From contig CAJQJL010000174.1 in the NCBI GenBank assembly GCA_905478665.1, positions 1 to 43,064 on the forward strand: 43,064 nucleotides of DNA. The letters are read 5' to 3'. Both the position numbers and the translations under genes were made by a program. Below, piece by piece: positions 20,542-27,508 of the stretch (the first letter of the stretch is position 1; each line of letters begins with the position of its first letter). Under the pieces are notes generated by a model that was given only the letters and a program-made list of their open reading frames with translations, did no database searches and was not told where the DNA came from. The DNA is from an uncultured Flavobacteriales bacterium (GTDB lineage Bacteria; Bacteroidota; Bacteroidia; Flavobacteriales_D; Crocinitomicaceae).

Positions 20542-21006
20542 CTACGAAAGTAAATTCTGTCGCGCGATAAACTCTAATTGTTTGTTGGCTACTTTCAATT
20601 CTTCCATCAATCGTACATTTTCCATACGCAGCGAATAGACTTCATGCGCCTGTTGAATGACCAAAAGCAAATCCTGTGGATCCCAAGGTTTGGAAACGTA
20701 ACGATAAACCTGCCCTTGATTAATGGCGTCAATAACAGCTTCGATGTCTGAATAGCCAGTGATAAGAATACGGATGGTATCAGGATATTTTTCTTTTAGA
20801 ATCTTCAGAAACTCAACGCCCGTCATAACAGGCATTCGTTGGTCAGACAACACGATATGGATTTCATTCTCTTCCAGCACCTTTAATCCTTCCTTGGCGC
20901 TTTCAGCAAAATAGATGTCAAAATCTCTTCGATATGTTGCTTTAAAAGAAGTCAGATTGTGGACTTCATCGTCCACGTACAGCACTTTTAATTTCTCCTC
21001 ATTCAT
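20542..21006 (-). CDS. Receiver-domain response regulator
   Basis: The 154-residue protein is one receiver domain: LKVLYVDDEVHNLTSFKATY with the acidic pair, HIVLSDQRMPVMTGVEFLKI with the phosphoacceptor Asp near residue 55, IRILITGYSD, and the Lys in YRYVSKPWDPQDL. A short helical tail follows. The DQRMP and KPW signature is that of RpfG-like receivers. It lacks an output domain, so it probably acts by protein contact. It is a close paralogue of the receiver in the gene at 26559-27278, and it is divergent from the E1-nitroreductase gene, so it probably belongs to the same signalling set. Confidence 0.92.
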   Translation of the reverse strand: MNEEKLKVLYVDDEVHNLTSFKATYRRDFDIYFAESAKEGLKVLEENEIHIVLSDQRMPVMTGVEFLKILKEKYPDTIRILITGYSDIEAVIDAINQGQVYRYVSKPWDPQDLLLVIQQAHEVYSLRMENVRLMEELKVANKQLEFIARQNLLS

Positions 21007-21089
21007 AAACTAAATTGTTTGCATTCTATGATTCCTAAATCGTATTAAATCGGTTAATCGGAATTTCTAAAATACATATTATTTTGTTA

Positions 21090-21097
21090 CAAACCTA
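21090..21097 (-). promoter_or_regulatory. -7 promoter element of the receiver gene
   Basis: On the minus strand TAGGTTTG fits the Bacteroidota -7 consensus TAnnTTTG, ~84 bp upstream of the receiver ATG. No good -33 element is seen. Confidence 0.4.
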
Positions 21098-21234
21098 GCT
21101 AAAAATGCACCTATACTTTGCCCTGACAGCACTTCTGAAACACCAAAAATACACATAATAAACGTGATTTATACGGTAAAAAATTGCAGATAATACCTGA
21201 TGCTTTGGTGGCTATCCTAAATCCATTTTTTGAA

Positions 21235-21268
21235 TTGGTTTTTTGATGCACCAGTATCTTTATCTTTG
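21235..21268 (+). promoter_or_regulatory. Promoter of the E1-nitroreductase gene; decides its start
   Basis: TATCTTTG at 21261-21268 is a perfect TAnnTTTG, with TTGG (21235-21238) or TTTG (21242-21245) upstream as -33 candidates. Transcription would begin near 21275, so the protein is likely to start at the ATG at 21308 and not at one further upstream. Confidence 0.6.
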
Positions 21269-21307
21269 TCAAATTCCTCAGGCACTTTCCAAACTAATTG
21301 CCTAGTT

Positions 21308-23605
21308 ATGAAGATGAAACTCCAAGCTCTCGCAAAAAATACATCCGCTCACAACAATACTACAGAAGTCCAACTTTTTCGATTGTCATCTGAAAAAGAC
21401 GCTGTAAAATTGTCAAAACTTCTCGAATCAAATCAAGAAATTCGTGTGTTTGATGAACTCAATTCACAGCTTACAGAATTGATCAAATTAAGGTTTCCTA
21501 AACAAAAAAATACTGAAGAAAAAACACAATTACTTGTTTCGGAACACCTAAACGGAACTCCAAGCGAAGAATACGGGGTTTGGGTTTACTACAGTTGGAA
21601 CAATTCACTCGTACACATTCTTGATCGGAAAGAATTTTATGAAGTAAAAACAAATCGTAATCAACATAAGATTACCCAAGCCGAAAGTGACATCTTGAGT
21701 CAGAAAATAGTAGGCGTGGTGGGTTTATCTGTAGGAAGAACCATTGCGGTAACAATGACAATGGAACACAGTTTTGGTGAGATTCGAATTGCTGATTTCG
21801 ATGTGCTTGACCTGAGTAATTACAACCGAATTCGTGCTGGAATCGCAGATCTAGGAATTAAGAAAACAGTCTCTCTTGCACGAGAAATTGCGGAAATTGA
21901 TCCTTATGTTAAGGTAACGTGCTTTCATGAAGGATTGACAGAGGATACCATTGATGACTTTTTCTCCAAAGATGGACAACTGGATGTTTTAGTTGACGAA
22001 TGCGATGGCTTGGACATTAAAATTCGATTGCGTGAAAAAGCCAAGGCACTGAGAATCCCTGTCATTATGGACATGAATGATCGTGGTACTATGGATATTG
22101 AACGCTTTGACCTGGAGCCCGACAGACCCTTATTACACGGATATATTGGACACCTGGACTCTACAAAACTAAAAGGGCTAACAAACGAGCAGAAGATTCC
22201 GTATATTATGCCTATGCTGGGAGAATCTACTATTTCTACAAAACTCAAGGCATCAATGCTCGAAATAGAGCAAACAATAACAACGTGGCCACAATTGGCT
22301 GCTGATGTTACCCTTGGAGGGGCCGTTGCCGCAAATGTATACCGAAGAATTATTCTTAACGAGTTTCAAGACTCGGGCAGGTACTTTGTGGATATGGATG
22401 AGTTGATCTGCAACGAAAACATAGAACTAGAAGAAGAAGAACCAGCAGAAGAATCATTTCGTAAAGCTTCTCCTTTAACTTGGGAAGAATGCCATCAAAT
22501 AGTTGAGCAAACAACGGTTGTCGAGTTGGAAACAAGTGTCCTATTGAATGAATTGGAGTTAAACACCATTCTTGAAGCTGCAATCTTGGCGCCCACTGGA
22601 GGGAATGCACAACCGTGGAAATGGGTTGCATATAACAAAACGATATTCTTATTCAAAGATCAATACCAGTCGGATACTTTATTGGACTATAAAGGCAAAG
22701 CTGCTTTCATTGGATTAGGGGCTGCCATTGAGAATTTATCATTGAAGGCACTTGAGCTAGGTTATGCCGCTAAGGTTATCAACTTCCCATCTCAAGATGA
22801 ATCCTTAGTGTGCAGCATTCAGTTCACAACAGCAGATGGAGCGAAAGATGAACTCAGCAAGTTTATCAACCTTCGATGCACAAATAGAGGTTTAACACCG
22901 AGTAGTAAGATTCCTGAAGATAAGATTTCAGCAATTGCAAAAGAAGGCGGTCAGATTGATGATGCTGAAGTTCTTTTTACAAATGATAGCGATACTGTTC
23001 ATTCTTTGACAGAGATCATAGCTTCGGTGGAACGAATCCGCATGATGGAGAAACAAGGACACCATGATTTTCTGGATGAGATTTGCTGGACAAAAGAAGA
23101 AAGCGAAACTAGGCGCAATGGTCTCGACATTCGAACACTAGAATTGACAGCTGGGGAATTAACTGGATTCAGAATGGCAAAAGATTGGAAAGTTATCGAT
23201 CAACTGAAAAAGTGGAATGGTGGTGGCGCCTTCGAAGGGCTCGCTCGGAAAAGCATGCAAGCTGCTGGCTCTATTGGGTACATCACTATTAAGAACAAGA
23301 CGAATGCCGGTCTTTTGGAGGCTGGACGTTTATTGGAACGGTGTTGGCTTGAAGCTTCTCGTCAGGGACTTGGACTTCAACCGATGTCTCCCTGTACATT
23401 TTTCTTTGAACGCCTTATTGATGGTAACGGAATTGACTTATCCAACGAGGTAATAAACGAACTCACCACCTTACGAAACAAGCTATTGGAGACCTTGCAA
23501 ATTAGCGATCATCCAATATTCATTTTCAGGCTGCACACAAATGGAGAGCCTGAAGTCAAATCATTGAGAAAACCACTTTCTGAAGTTTTTCAGAAAATCA
23601 AATAA
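21308..23605 (+). CDS. E1/ThiF-like - nitroreductase fusion protein (Rv1355c-like)
   Basis: From the ATG at 21308 the product is 765 residues. The first ~120 residues are a conserved-looking N-terminal domain (EVQLFRLSSEKDAVKLSKLL). An E1/ThiF Rossmann domain follows (~130-360), with KIVGVVGLSVGRTIAVTMTM for nucleotide and IADFDVLDLSNYNRIRAGIA, the D-x-D-x-x-x-L-S-N-x-N-R signature of E1-like adenylating enzymes. The last ~320 residues are nitroreductase-like (ILEAAILAPTGGNAQPWKWV is the flavin-binding start). No CxxC zinc pairs or catalytic E1 cysteine stand out. The architecture is that of proteins labelled 'Rv1355c family' in mycobacteria. The enzyme would adenylate a carboxylate and a flavin domain could oxidise or reduce the product; the substrate is unknown. 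A GNAT gene follows after 7 bp. Confidence 0.85.
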   Translation: MKMKLQALAKNTSAHNNTTEVQLFRLSSEKDAVKLSKLLESNQEIRVFDELNSQLTELIKLRFPKQKNTEEKTQLLVSEHLNGTPSEEYGVWVYYSWNNSLVHILDRKEFYEVKTNRNQHKITQAESDILSQKIVGVVGLSVGRTIAVTMTMEHSFGEIRIADFDVLDLSNYNRIRAGIADLGIKKTVSLAREIAEIDPYVKVTCFHEGLTEDTIDDFFSKDGQLDVLVDECDGLDIKIRLREKAKALRIPVIMDMNDRGTMDIERFDLEPDRPLLHGYIGHLDSTKLKGLTNEQKIPYIMPMLGESTISTKLKASMLEIEQTITTWPQLAADVTLGGAVAANVYRRIILNEFQDSGRYFVDMDELICNENIELEEEEPAEESFRKASPLTWEECHQIVEQTTVVELETSVLLNELELNTILEAAILAPTGGNAQPWKWVAYNKTIFLFKDQYQSDTLLDYKGKAAFIGLGAAIENLSLKALELGYAAKVINFPSQDESLVCSIQFTTADGAKDELSKFINLRCTNRGLTPSSKIPEDKISAIAKEGGQIDDAEVLFTNDSDTVHSLTEIIASVERIRMMEKQGHHDFLDEICWTKEESETRRNGLDIRTLELTAGELTGFRMAKDWKVIDQLKKWNGGGAFEGLARKSMQAAGSIGYITIKNKTNAGLLEAGRLLERCWLEASRQGLGLQPMSPCTFFFERLIDGNGIDLSNEVINELTTLRNKLLETLQISDHPIFIFRLHTNGEPEVKSLRKPLSEVFQKIK

Positions 23606-23612
23606 CTACGAA

Positions 23613-24323
23613 ATGCTACGATTAAAAGCCTTTCGCGCTGTCGACAATCCTGAGTTGGCTCAAAAGTATGTCCAAGGGCATCAAGATGTATTAAAAATTT
23701 ATGGTATTACGGAGATCACTTCGGCCAAAGACGACTGGTATAATAACCCTGCAACTTATGCAATCGTCGCAATTGATGAGGACACACAAGAAGTTGTTGG
23801 CGGAATTCGAATGCAAGTTGTTGGTGGAGATCGACCATTGCCAGTGGAAGACGCTGTTGGGTATATGGACGATCGAATTCATGACATCGTACACACATAT
23901 CATACTATTTTTGGAGCAGCTGAATTGTGTGGGTTATGGAATTCCCGAAAGGTTGCTGGCTATGGTGTTAGTTGGCTTCTTACCCGAACAGGGATAGCAA
24001 TAGCGCCTCAAGTAGGTGTCCGCACTTTGTTTGGAATCTGTGCCAACATCACATTACCTATGTTCAAAAAAACGGGCTACGTCATTGAACGTTCTGTAGG
24101 CGTTGATGGAACCTTTTACTATCCAAAATCTGATCTTCTAGCATATACAATAATCATGGATGCTGAATTACTGGATACAGCACATGCCGAAGAAAGGGAG
24201 AAAATTTTTAATCTCAGAAAAGATTTTAACCAGCGCTCGATTATTACAGGTCCGAAAGCAACGTTCGAGGTTCAATACGATCTTGTCCTAAGCCAATGTG
24301 AATTGTTCGAATATAATGGATAA
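23613..24323 (+). CDS. GNAT-fold acyltransferase, autoinducer-synthase-like
   Basis: The 236-residue protein starts 7 bp after the E1-nitroreductase gene, so the two are co-translated. Its core has the GNAT look: TYAIVAIDEDTQEVVGGIRM (the b4-like strand pair), then AAELCGLWNSRKVAGYGVSW (the conserved 'ELCGLW-SR--AGYGVS' acyl-donor loop and helix), then GVRTLFGICANITLPMFKKT (the 'k-Gf' end of the fold). This order resembles the N-acyl amino acid synthase and AHL-synthase branch of GNAT enzymes, which acylate small molecules from acyl-ACP or acyl-CoA. It may acylate the product of the upstream enzyme. Substrate unknown. Confidence 0.8.
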   Translation: MLRLKAFRAVDNPELAQKYVQGHQDVLKIYGITEITSAKDDWYNNPATYAIVAIDEDTQEVVGGIRMQVVGGDRPLPVEDAVGYMDDRIHDIVHTYHTIFGAAELCGLWNSRKVAGYGVSWLLTRTGIAIAPQVGVRTLFGICANITLPMFKKTGYVIERSVGVDGTFYYPKSDLLAYTIIMDAELLDTAHAEEREKIFNLRKDFNQRSIITGPKATFEVQYDLVLSQCELFEYNG

Positions 24324-24401
24324 ATTTACATACTAATATCCGTTGTCTGTGACTAAGCATGGTTTCTGCTTTACGTCACTGGAAGTTAAACTCAAGTTTC
24401 A

Positions 24402-26534
24402 ATGATTTTAATTATTCGTCAGTACATCATCGGCTTACTATTCACTGTTTTAGCGCTTTCTACCAATGCACAAACGGATTATGTAGGCTCCGAAATTCAA
24501 AAGATTGGAGGTGATGTTTTTCTATTAGAAGATAAAGAGAGCAACCTTCGCATTGAAGATGTTGTCACTTCAGACGCATTCGTTAAAAGCGAAAAGCGTG
24601 TCCCAAATATGGGCGTTACTGAATCCTCTTTTTGGCTTAAAATTCCAATTCGAAACAATTCAGACGAAAAGAATATCCTTTTAATGCTTGAGCAACCATT
24701 TATTGACGTGGTTGAACTTTATACCCCTAACTCAGACGGCTCTTTTGACGCGACCAAGATGGGTGAGTATCAAGCTTTTGGCAAGCGTAAATATAACGAC
24801 CCGAATTATTTATTTGACATTGACATTCCTTTAGGAGAAGAGCGTACTTTTTACATGAAAGTAAGTGGTAAAGAACAGATCCAATTGCCTTTAGTTCTTG
24901 GTTCAAAAAAACTCGTCCTCGAAAAAAGAAAACAAAGCGATTTATTGTCTGGACTCTACTTCGGAATCATCATCGTTATGATGCTTTACAATCTCTTTAT
25001 TTACTTCACCACCCGCGATAACAGTTACTTGTATTACGTCGTGTACATCGTATTAATTGGACTTACTCAAATCAGTCTTCAGGGATATCCATTTCAATAC
25101 TTATGGCCAAATATTCCGTGGATGTCTGAGCATTCTCTGTTCATTTTCCCTTCACTTGTTGGAGCATCTGCACTGGTATTTATGCGCAACTTTCTTCAAG
25201 TTAAGACTTCCCTTCCCAAGCTCGACAAGCTCATTACGCTCTTCCTTGTGATTTATGGAATGTGCATCGTTTTAGCCATCTCAGGTTTCTACAAGTTGAG
25301 TTACAATATGATTGAAATCAACGCCATGGTGGTTTCGATTTACATGCTCACCGTGACGATAATAATCGTGCGAAGAGGATACCGTCCTGGACGTTACTTT
25401 CTTCTTGCATGGTCGACTTTCTTATTGGGTGTTATCCTCTTTGTTATGAAAGATCAAGGAGTGCTTCCATACAACGGTCTTACCCGTTACACAATGCATA
25501 TCGGTTCTGCCCTTGAGGTAATTCTACTTTCATTTGCACTGGCAGATAGAATCAATATCCTCAAAGCTGAAAAAGAAGCCTCACAAGCAAAAGCCCTTCA
25601 TGTTTCACTTGAAAATGAACGCATCATTCGAGAGCAAAACGTAATTCTGGAAAAAAAGGTAAAAGAGCGCACAACTGAATTGGAGAATACAAATACTGAG
25701 CTGAACCAAACTTACAATGATCTCAAGCAAACACAATCTAAGTTGGTGGAATCCGAAAAAATGGCATCGCTGGGACAGTTGACAGCGGGAATTGCGCATG
25801 AAATAAACAACCCAATTAATTTCGTGACGGCGAACGTAGAACCACTTAAGCGTGACATCAAAGATCTGCTCACATTAATTGACAATTACGAAGCTATAGA
25901 TCCAGCTGAAAACATCACTGGTCAACTGGAAAGAATCCATGCACTTTCCAAAGAGCTTGATCTTGCTTACCTAAAAACCGAAGTTGACGAGCTGATCGAA
26001 GGAATTGGTGAAGGAGCCAATCGTACCGCTGAAATTGTAAAAGGTCTTCGCAATTTTTCACGTTTAGACGAAGGTGATGTGAAGTTTGCCAATGTGAATG
26101 AAGGAATAGAATCCACATTAACCATATTAGACAATGAACTTTACGCAATAGAAGTTGTCAAGAATCTTGATACGATTGATGCAATTGAATGCTATCCTGG
26201 AAAATTGAATCAATTATTTATGAACTTGCTGTCCAATTCCATTCAAGCTATAAAAGAAAAGAACGATACGGGAGGGAAAATTGAATTGACATCTCGGCAA
26301 ATTGAGGACAAAATTGAACTCCGATTCAAAGACAACGGTATAGGAATGACCGAAGAAACAAAGAACAGACTATTCGAGCCATTTTTCACTACGAAGGACG
26401 TTGGCGAAGGGACTGGTCTCGGACTTTCAATAGCTTATAGCATTGTTGAATTGCATCATGGAACAATTAAAGTTGAATCAGTTTTAGGTGAAGGATCAGA
26501 ATTTATTATTCGATTACCCCTCAAGCAAAGTTAA
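24402..26534 (+). CDS. 7TMR-DISM sensor histidine kinase
   Basis: The 710-residue kinase has a signal peptide (MILIIRQYIIGLLFTVLALS then TNAQ), an extracytoplasmic 7TMR-DISM domain (~30-175; NMGVTESSFWLKIPIRNNSD is typical), seven membrane helices (~185-385), a coiled coil (~395-450), a HisKA box MASLGQLTAGIAHEINNPIN with the phosphoacceptor His, and an ATPase domain with N-box (LNQLFMNLLSNSIQAI), DNGIGMTEE, and GEGTGLGLSIAYSIVELHHG. DISM domains bind small ligands, often carbohydrates or acyl-type molecules. It lies ~80 bp after the GNAT gene and 24 bp before its likely partner regulator. Confidence 0.95.
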   Translation: MILIIRQYIIGLLFTVLALSTNAQTDYVGSEIQKIGGDVFLLEDKESNLRIEDVVTSDAFVKSEKRVPNMGVTESSFWLKIPIRNNSDEKNILLMLEQPFIDVVELYTPNSDGSFDATKMGEYQAFGKRKYNDPNYLFDIDIPLGEERTFYMKVSGKEQIQLPLVLGSKKLVLEKRKQSDLLSGLYFGIIIVMMLYNLFIYFTTRDNSYLYYVVYIVLIGLTQISLQGYPFQYLWPNIPWMSEHSLFIFPSLVGASALVFMRNFLQVKTSLPKLDKLITLFLVIYGMCIVLAISGFYKLSYNMIEINAMVVSIYMLTVTIIIVRRGYRPGRYFLLAWSTFLLGVILFVMKDQGVLPYNGLTRYTMHIGSALEVILLSFALADRINILKAEKEASQAKALHVSLENERIIREQNVILEKKVKERTTELENTNTELNQTYNDLKQTQSKLVESEKMASLGQLTAGIAHEINNPINFVTANVEPLKRDIKDLLTLIDNYEAIDPAENITGQLERIHALSKELDLAYLKTEVDELIEGIGEGANRTAEIVKGLRNFSRLDEGDVKFANVNEGIESTLTILDNELYAIEVVKNLDTIDAIECYPGKLNQLFMNLLSNSIQAIKEKNDTGGKIELTSRQIEDKIELRFKDNGIGMTEETKNRLFEPFFTTKDVGEGTGLGLSIAYSIVELHHGTIKVESVLGEGSEFIIRLPLKQS

Positions 26535-26558
26535 ATTCCATATATTTAGTCCGCTATC

Positions 26559-27278
26559 ATGACTGAATTACTCAAAATACCGCTGCTATACGTTGACGAT
26601 GAGAAGGTTAACCTCTTGGCTTTTCGTGCAAACTTCCGTAGAAACTATGAAGTTTTTACGGCCTCTTCCGGGGAAGAAGGGAAAAAATTACTAGAAGAAC
26701 ATAACATCAAAGTTGTCGTTGCCGACCAGCGAATGCCCAAAATGACAGGGGTTGAATTTTTTGAATGGATTCAAGAAGATCACCCGGACACCGTGCGTAT
26801 TCTGTTGACTGGATTTGCGGATATTTCAGCCGTTATTGATGCAATCAATAAAGGAAAGATATACTCGTATGTAACTAAGCCTTGGCACGAAGATGAACTC
26901 CGACAAACCTTCGAAGGAGGGATTGAACAAAGTCAACGAAACATTGCCTTAAGAAATTTGGAAGTGTGCTATACACACCTTTTTCAACATACCACAGACG
27001 CTGTATTTACAATCGATCAGTTCGGTAAAATCATTAATGTAAATAATGCTGCGACTAAACTCTTTGATTATTCTGCAGATGAAATTCGATCAATACATCT
27101 CGATCAGCTTTTCGATGGGTTTGAATCACTTGAGAAGTTAGTAAGCGACTCTGGGAAAAAAGACCAACTCATTTACAACAAATTTCGAGCACCTATTACC
27201 TGTACCCTTTATGCCATGGCCATTAAGGTCAAAGGGAATTCGGAAGGCTCAGTACAGGTGATCTTACAACAGAATTAA
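26559..27278 (+). CDS. Response regulator with receiver and PAS domains
   Basis: The 239-residue protein has a receiver domain (1-125: LLYVDDEKVNLLAFRANFRR, VVVADQRMPKMTGVEFFEWI with the Asp near 54, VRILLTGFAD, and the Lys of YSYVTKPWHEDEL) and a C-terminal PAS domain (~145-239: FQHTTDAVFTIDQFGKIINV, NNAATKLFDYSADEIRSIHL). There is no HTH or enzymatic output domain. The receiver is highly similar to the one at 20542-21006, across the biosynthetic genes. It lies 24 bp after the kinase gene and is the likely phosphoacceptor partner. Confidence 0.93.
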   Translation: MTELLKIPLLYVDDEKVNLLAFRANFRRNYEVFTASSGEEGKKLLEEHNIKVVVADQRMPKMTGVEFFEWIQEDHPDTVRILLTGFADISAVIDAINKGKIYSYVTKPWHEDELRQTFEGGIEQSQRNIALRNLEVCYTHLFQHTTDAVFTIDQFGKIINVNNAATKLFDYSADEIRSIHLDQLFDGFESLEKLVSDSGKKDQLIYNKFRAPITCTLYAMAIKVKGNSEGSVQVILQQN

Positions 27279-27382: not shown

Positions 27383-27442
27383 ATGAATTTCAGTCAATTG
27401 CATCATCATCATTTTCATACTTGCTCTCAAGCGAGGAGTTAA
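27383..27442 (+). CDS. hisL: His operon leader peptide
   Basis: A 19-residue frame reads MNFSQLHHHHFHTCSQARS and stops at TAA. Four His codons (CAT) in a row plus one more, near its middle, are what a ribosome would stall on when His-tRNA is short. It lies between the operon promoter and a terminator. Too short to be a typical gene; support is the His run plus the folding of the following RNA. Confidence 0.85.
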   Translation: MNFSQLHHHHFHTCSQARS

Positions 27443-27508
27443 TGATATGTGCTGACTAAAAACAACAATATTATAAACCCGTTTGAGTAATCAGACGGGT
27501 TTTTTGTT
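27420..27508 (+). promoter_or_regulatory. Attenuator of the histidine operon (antiterminator and terminator)
   Basis: Three alternative pairings are visible. Leader hairpin: CTTGCT (27420-27425) with AGCGAG (27430-27435). Antiterminator: CTCAAGCG (27426-27433) with CGTTTGAG (27479-27486). Terminator: AACCCGTTTGA (27475-27485) with TCAGACGGGTT (27490-27500), followed by TTTTTGTTT. The antiterminator would break the terminator's left arm. A ribosome stalled on the His run would free 27426-27433 for it, turning the operon on when histidine is scarce. Confidence 0.8.

Follow-up and report, generated by a model that had tools for sequence, protein, structure and literature searches.

The DNA analysed here is a contig of 43,064 nucleotides from an uncultured Flavobacteriales bacterium (Bacteroidota, Crocinitomicaceae; GenBank assembly GCA_905478665.1, contig CAJQJL010000174.1), below called the window. 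It carries a block of five genes: a lone receiver, a fusion of an E1/ThiF domain with a flavin nitroreductase domain, an acyltransferase of the GNAT type, a 7TMR-DISM histidine kinase and a receiver-PAS (REC-PAS) protein (Table 1). A preliminary description of the sequence had proposed that the enzymes make a small molecule to which the kinase responds. All five open reading frames (ORFs) on which it relied lie in the window where it had placed them, and the GNAT gene indeed starts 7 bp after the fusion. The fusion ORF was originally called as 21230-23605 (+) with a TTG start; the ATG at 21308 is the more likely start, because the family match described below leaves out the first 37 residues of the ORF that begins at TTG. 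The intergenic region between the divergent arms likely carries the promoters of both, and a scan of the sequence for sigma-70 promoters and terminators returned a number of sites not above that in shuffled sequence.

Table 1. Coordinates of the genes, domains and sites of the five-gene block in the window.
Feature	Position	Strand	Basis or remark
Lone receiver	20542..21006	(-)	PF00072 E 5.6e-20; divergently transcribed
Divergent intergenic region	21007..21307	.	From gene layout
TrzS-like E1/ThiF-nitroreductase fusion	21308..23605	(+)	NF005901, 757 bits
E1/ThiF cyclase domain of fusion	about 21308-22459	(+)	
Flavin mononucleotide (FMN) nitroreductase/oxidase domain of fusion	about 22520-23602	(+)	
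Adenylation Asp of fusion	22004-22006	(+)	Aligned catalytic position
GNAT, acyl-homoserine lactone synthase/FeeM fold	23613..24323	(+)	Predicted N-acyl amino-acid synthase, TrzA-like
7TMR-DISM kinase, full gene	24402..26534	(+)	Pfam
Kinase sensor half: N-terminal hydrophobic helix, DISMED2, 7TM	24402..25586	(+)	Pfam; model pLDDT 92.9
Kinase transmitter: coiled coil, HisKA-HATPase	25587..26534	(+)	Pfam; sliding-window drop at about residue 400
REC-PAS protein	26559..27278	(+)	Pfam/NCBIfam domain match

The assignment of the fusion as an Rv1355c-like E1/ThiF-nitroreductase protein is borne out by its Pfam domains (ThiF, E 2.5e-16; Nitroreductase, E 3.9e-10) and by its match to the NCBIfam family NF005901, 'Rv1355c family protein', which covers positions 4-719 of 722 and scores well above the family cut-off of 476 bits. 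The ThiF adenylation aspartate and the flavin-site arginine (D217 and R540 in TrzS of M. smegmatis) are both present in the window fusion; the two positions were placed via D202 and R525 of Mycolicibacterium sp. TY66 with a constant offset of 15, which was inferred and not read from the M. smegmatis sequence. Among proteins of solved structure, t6A dehydratases come closest to the E1 profile; these cyclise the carboxylate of an N-acyl amino acid. A role as activating enzyme for a ubiquitin-like or sulfur-carrier protein was considered and dropped, as the TrzS-family match spans the whole model. Rv1356c has been shown to be TrzA, a tryptophan N-acyltransferase, and Rv1355c to be TrzS, in which a ThiF cyclase and a flavin oxidase are fused; jointly they produce N-acyl tryptazolones, which are N-acyl oxazolones (PMC12856293); TyzACB is a related set (PMC10404671), and in the case of the stieleriacines ThiF and nitroreductase genes adjoin N-acyl amino-acid synthases in other phyla (PMC12479983). 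Judged by sequence, the enzyme pair of the window is TrzAS-like and its chemistry thereby already known, with an oxazolone as the predicted product.

The GNAT matches no Pfam or NCBIfam family at E <= 0.01, two of its relatives likewise match no Pfam family, and a sequence search of the PDB with the GNAT profile gave a single insignificant match (E 0.22). The fold of its AlphaFold model (predicted local distance difference test, pLDDT, 93.2) agrees with the autoinducer-synthase type put forward earlier: Foldseek ranks 1-11 are occupied by acyl-homoserine lactone (AHL) synthases (BjaI, RpaI, EsaI, MesI, TofI) and by FeeM, the latter with a template modelling (TM) score by target of up to 0.82. 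That the GNAT might instead be closest to protein-acetylating enzymes, which the preliminary description had counted as a refutation, did not prove true, such enzymes starting only at rank 12. A plain protein or antibiotic acetyltransferase was discarded as a candidate on the same ranking, and membership of the LuxI-type AHL synthases was rejected for want of a Pfam or NCBIfam autoinducer-synthase match. The kinase combines 7TMR-DISM_7TM (E 1.3e-60) and DISMED2 (E 7.1e-32) domains with HisKA and HATPase domains. For the model of its sensor half, the sensor domain of RetS is the best solved match; the model also resembles human Wntless weakly (TM 0.39 by query), a protein that binds lipid.

These genes travel together in Bacteroidota. 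In an even sample of 296 genomes of the phylum, searched with cut-offs of E <= 1e-30 for the E1 and E <= 1e-8 for the GNAT, each of the two families occurs in 12 genomes and both occur, adjoining, in 11; likewise, a GNAT adjoins in 11 of the 12 genomes with an NF005901 match. A larger draw of 395 Bacteroidota genomes, which contains the earlier matches, was searched with the GNAT profile and gave 13 matching genomes, window included, all at E <= 1e-77, and in every one of these 13, which span 11 genera and are not fully independent, the GNAT has a DISM kinase within two genes. If a genome is taken to hold some 4000 genes (an estimate), chance would produce such adjacency at about 0.3% per locus. 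Chance linkage is rejected because the adjacency holds in 13/13 genomes though 11 of them hold just 30 DISM matches in total (2-5 each, one below cut-off).

When the GNAT alignment was run against the species genomes of GTDB, at least 530 relatives came up; the best 80 of these by similarity, a Sphingobacterium-rich set, were used. Together, 78 of these loci and 11 from the phylum draw, the window not counted, make up the 89 called loci, some of which run into a contig edge. L091 was removed since it is the same place as L034; L071, whose GNAT ORF was not called, is uncounted and by eye contains a GNAT and a methyltransferase with a DISM kinase; a nitroreductase-only match in genome G008 (L038) is not this system and was kept out of the counts. 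Two loci with the same GNAT, L087 and L092, are near-identical, although their records are titled Azovibrio restrictus and uncultured Bacteroides, and are probably mis-named bins of a single Bacteroidota lineage. The kinase is found at most two genes from the GNAT and on the same strand in 89/89 loci, a larger receiver protein follows downstream on the same strand in 84, and 85 loci have a lone receiver no more than about six genes away, which in 81 of them lies on the opposite strand. GNAT and kinase are spaced as in an operon, with a median of 10 bp and a maximum of 133 over 149 gaps. The co-occurrence of GNAT, enzyme, DISM kinase and KPW-type receivers for which the preliminary description had called is thus found.

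The second enzyme, on the other hand, is interchangeable. The slot is filled by an E1 without nitroreductase domain in 31 of the 89 loci, by an E1-nitroreductase (E1-NTR) fusion in 32, by an S-adenosylmethionine-dependent methyltransferase (MT) in 23, by an ICMT-type membrane methyltransferase in 2 and by an FAD oxidase in 1; a third case of the ICMT type occurs in genome G383 (L119). The methyltransferases are class I enzymes of about 254 residues, and all 23, first labelled so by default because they were neither ICMT-like nor longer than 400 residues, were later confirmed by blastp against the methyltransferase of L056. The common role of the slot enzymes would be to cap N-acyl amino acids at their free carboxylate, an activity that we infer for the methyltransferases and the oxidase. 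In L041 (4025-7045) E1, nitroreductase and GNAT are fused in one ORF of 1006 residues, an arrangement that lends support to a shared pathway.

The signalling proteins are conserved around this variable slot. An H-box was found in 86/86 related kinases of more than 600 residues, the receiver Asp motif in 83/85 lone receivers and the His motif of the receiver-histidine kinase (REC-HK) in 70/84 proteins. The gene that corresponds to the REC-PAS gene of the window encodes a REC-HK in most relatives, the larger receiver protein matching the REC-HK profile in 81 of the 89 loci; L039 has the REC-PAS form of the window (238 residues). The two receivers of the window, previously called very close, are 47% identical in an alignment and hence related only, and a phosphate relay suits the prevalence of the REC-HK profile at least as well as the competition of two receivers for phosphate that had been envisaged. 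At its C-terminus the lone receiver bears a tail, LEFxxRQxLLS, whose pattern recurs in 78/85 lone receivers of related loci and which may dock onto the kinase or onto an output partner. An additional ORF of 125-155 residues follows the larger receiver on the same strand in 26/84 loci (e.g. L042, 13960-14361); the six of these ORFs that were inspected by eye resemble CheY-type receivers, one of them confirmed by Pfam.

To examine the covariation of kinase and enzyme we used the 81 of 89 loci with a kinase of more than 600 residues, a lone receiver and an unfused GNAT (27 E1, 28 E1-NTR, 23 MT, 2 ICMT, 1 FAD; E1 and E1-NTR were pooled, giving four classes), near-copies such as L087 and L092 being retained. 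In these relatives the sensor half follows enzyme class and the transmitter does not. On the trees of the 7TM and DISMED2 domains the class changes 3 times, which is the minimum, whereas 11 changes are needed on the tree of the kinase core, 10 on that of the GNAT and 12 on that of the lone receiver, the means after shuffling being about 23. IQ-TREE trees with the window added require 3 changes for the sensor and 12 for the core, and the starred branches alone impose 3 (MT) or 4 (E1) changes on the core tree. All MT sensors form a single clade (SH-aLRT 100), while the approximately unbiased (AU) test rejects MT monophyly with p values of 2.9e-10 for the core, 5e-85 for the GNAT and 1e-33 for the lone receiver. 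The pattern recurs within the 34 Sphingobacterium loci (17 E1, 17 MT), with 1 change for the sensor, 5 for the core, 4 each for GNAT and lone receiver and 3 for the REC-HK. Given core distance, 7TM distance shows a partial correlation of -0.45 with membership of the same class (0/2000 permutations as low), compared with 0.063 for the GNAT, 0.036 for the lone receiver and -0.023 for the core. In a sliding window along the kinase the values lie between -0.17 and -0.49 as far as about residue 400 and range from -0.12 to 0.05 beyond it; along the GNAT (-0.14 to 0.09) and the REC-HK (-0.13 to 0.09) they are small.

A natural swap between two Sphingobacterium loci locates this boundary within a single gene. 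L064 (S. tabacisoli) is of the E1 type and L068 (S. paucimobilis) of the MT type. Their DNA is 97.3% identical up to base 10678 of L064, shows no blastn match from there to 13102 and is 87% identical thereafter, and the unmatched block comprises the last part of the GNAT, the enzyme and the kinase up to residue 391. Of the flanking proteins, five upstream and two downstream were compared and show 99-100% identity; the values for GNAT, REC-HK and lone receiver are 90%, 93% and 92%. Along the kinase, identity per 40-residue window amounts to 10-50% in the sensor up to about residue 360 and to 78-100% in the transmitter from about residue 380 on.

We therefore consider it probable that the locus is a self-sensing small-molecule circuit, in which GNAT and slot enzyme make a signal that the matching sensor half of the DISM kinase perceives, possibly between cells. 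As proposed for the window, the GNAT would acylate the amine of an amino acid, activation of the carboxylate with ATP and closure of the oxazolone ring would be the task of the E1/ThiF domain, and the flavin domain would desaturate the oxazolone as in TrzS chemistry, yielding a neutral N-acyl oxazolone. The DISMED2/7TM half of the kinase would bind this product, and the kinase would pass phosphate to both the lone receiver and the REC-PAS protein, whose place is taken by a REC-HK in most relatives. In relatives a methyltransferase or oxidase together with a matching sensor half would replace the carboxylate step, with GNAT, transmitter and receivers remaining. The original idea that the enzymes make a small molecule and the DISM kinase senses it thus gains support from the common travel of the genes and from a sensor that follows enzyme class, the act of sensing being the conditional part.

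Several observations weigh against a self-sensing circuit or narrow it. The label permutations ignore relatedness, which makes the comparison between trees the stronger test. The effect of DISMED2 distance is weak when all loci are pooled (-0.107; 39/2000 permutations as low) and absent from the 47 loci outside Sphingobacterium (0.022). There, the raw 7TM means are nearly equal (1.09 for same class, 1.22 for different class) and the 7TM partial correlation is weaker (-0.28; 0/2000 as low), and our confidence is slightly lowered because of this weaker covariation. Histone, N-terminal and other GNATs follow closely behind the AHL synthases and FeeM (Foldseek E 2e-7 to 6e-7), and a conserved DNA-binding output domain was not recognised in the loci. 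Among the 24 E1-first loci the covariation with the 7TM domain is as strong for the GNAT as for the E1 (partial 0.65 and 0.64), and among the MT loci covariation with the sensor is seen for the lone receiver as well (0.49, 0.54). Furthermore, since the coding regions of enzyme and sensor adjoin in GNAT-first loci, one recombination tract may move both without any selection for matching. The kinase could then sense an unrelated envelope cue and control the enzymes, with covariation arising merely from tracts that span both, a view that accords with the contiguous differing block of L064 and L068 and with a GNAT that covaries with the sensor inside classes as well. Linkage alone, however, predicts neither a boundary at the sensor/transmitter junction nor the absence of mismatches: the change falls at that junction within one gene, no mismatched class was seen among the loci (the minimum of 3 changes, whereas the flanks need 10-12), and a sensor of an unrelated cue has no need to track enzyme class. 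We hold this explanation to be quite improbable.

Sensor relatives also occur outside such loci. With at most four candidates scored per genome, they were found in 98/395 genomes at E <= 1e-20, and 85 of these genomes lack the GNAT, another point on the opposing side. The 11 best sensor matches all belong to GNAT loci, and the two remaining GNAT loci rank among GNAT-less sensors. As a control, 0/7 GNAT-less DISM loci contained a GNAT, an E1 or such a lone receiver in the stretch fetched, and therefore DISM kinases generally sense other cues; in one of the GNAT-less loci, L126, a REC-HK lies two genes from the DISM gene. The preliminary description had asked whether the enzymes occur elsewhere without the kinase. 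They are linked to it in 13/13 Bacteroidota genomes and unlinked in the Actinobacteria inspected, where 3/3 plasmid loci (of 13 matching records) gave no match to DISM, kinase or receiver profiles, so that linkage to the kinase is, on the loci seen so far, a feature of Bacteroidota. In Rhodococcus (L120, 4003-5738) a GGDEF protein, another signalling partner in another phylum, is encoded two genes from the Rv1355c homologue, which is also flanked by a hypothetical gene with a weak match to the GNAT profile; this recalls the c-di-GMP genes noted next to trzAS (PMC12856293). A Streptomyces locus has a 'sensor domain-containing protein' some 5 kb off.

The E1-only loci concern the chemistry. The 31 of them lack a flavin domain and show no separate flavin gene in the stretch analysed, and the product is therefore not identical everywhere, which again tells against the scheme in its simplest form. 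With no flavin domain beside the E1 in 27/81 loci of the covariation set, and with E1-like enzymes performing several types of acyl transfer, the activated carboxylate might be passed on differently, e.g. to an amine or thiol, to give another N-acyl amino-acid derivative in a circuit that would still be self-sensing. For the window this is very improbable in view of a near full-length match to NF005901 at 757 bits and of conserved positions that align with the mycobacterial homologue.

A further explanation retains both product and sensing and differs in purpose. The molecule could be a bioactive or stress lipid for antibiotic, envelope or redox use, its level being monitored by the kinase for regulation of its own operon or for self-protection. 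The match of sensor and enzyme is expected equally in this case, and the discussion in PMC12856293 refers to N-acyl tyrosine derivatives with antimicrobial activity and suggests that oxazolones have roles in stress. On the other hand, the gene maps, in which most flanking ORFs are unannotated, revealed no recognisable shared transporter or resistance gene, and repeated swapping of a tailoring step is in our judgement more typical of specific signals. We regard such product-responsive regulation as unlikely. Going one step beyond the self-sensing circuit, we lean slightly towards a family of cell-to-cell signalling systems of Bacteroidota: N-acyl amino acids would come from an AHL-synthase-like enzyme, a swappable enzyme that caps the carboxylate (cyclase, methyltransferase or oxidase) would set the identity of the signal, and the 7TM half of the DISM kinase, exchanged together with this enzyme as a chemical pherotype, would be the cognate receptor.

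Two observations from the same genome stand apart from the circuit. Downstream of the block a leader peptide MNFSQLHHHHFHTCSQARS is encoded at 27383-27442 (+), followed by a terminator-like hairpin (27475-27502) and a hisG-like gene; the segment 27383-27502 resembles a histidine attenuator. The genome also encodes a second DISM protein, about 700 residues long (L129; genome G000, contig C141, 15374-16552), which does not match the kinase-core profile and whose neighbours are, by eye, transporter-like and ribosomal-protein-L9-like.

We know of no widely accepted acyl-type autoinducer system that Bacteroidota have of their own, and to our knowledge most 7TMR-DISM sensors still lack an assigned ligand. 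The discoverers of N-acyl oxazolones name the physiological role of these compounds as a major unresolved question (PMC12856293). The covariation points at once to a synthase, a product class and a receptor half, whereby a Bacteroidota signal, a role for oxazolones and ligands of DISM sensors become testable, and the natural swap of L064 and L068 offers a ready-made control.

The statement that no system with this set had been described holds in part. The enzyme set is described (TrzAS) and similar sets occur in many Bacteroidota; the kinase linkage is new in the literature searched, which yielded no description of this Bacteroidota set, most subscription journals lying outside its coverage and long listings being covered in part. 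TrzAS, TyzACB and OxzAB share with the window a ThiF cyclase that is either fused to a flavin oxidase or its neighbour, with an adjoining acyltransferase (PMC12856293, PMC10404671), an acyltransferase model resembling FeeM and BjaI, and, for the fusion, the NF005901 family; they differ in that the main texts name no histidine kinase or two-component system (PMC12856293, PMC10404671). Genes for c-di-GMP adjoin trzAS, and a signal role is no more than suggested (PMC12856293). The closest layout is that of Ralstonia PhcBSRQ, where the methyltransferase for a methyl-ester signal, a sensor kinase, a REC-histidine kinase and a receiver form one operon, although the signal is a fatty-acid methyl ester and the accessible text names no GNAT (PMC10653808). 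Many MT-type relatives show this layout, a likeness in gene arrangement; the window departs from it with E1-NTR in place of the methyltransferase and REC-PAS in place of the REC-HK. With FeeM and LuxI-type acyl synthases the window GNAT shares the fold, though it has neither a family nor a notable PDB sequence match, and with RetS-type kinases the window kinase shares the DISMED2 and 7TM sensor; for RetS and its kin we know of no synthase neighbour. A circuit of synthase and sensor is a known kind, while a swappable enzyme-receptor cassette for small-molecule signals was not met in the literature searched. In the agr and comQXP pherotypes maker and receptor half are exchanged as a block while transmitter and flanks stay. 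The exchange seen here is of the same form, with an enzyme-made small molecule in place of their peptide signals, and if our interpretation is correct, these loci would be a small-molecule counterpart of the peptide pherotypes and a means of private chemical signalling.

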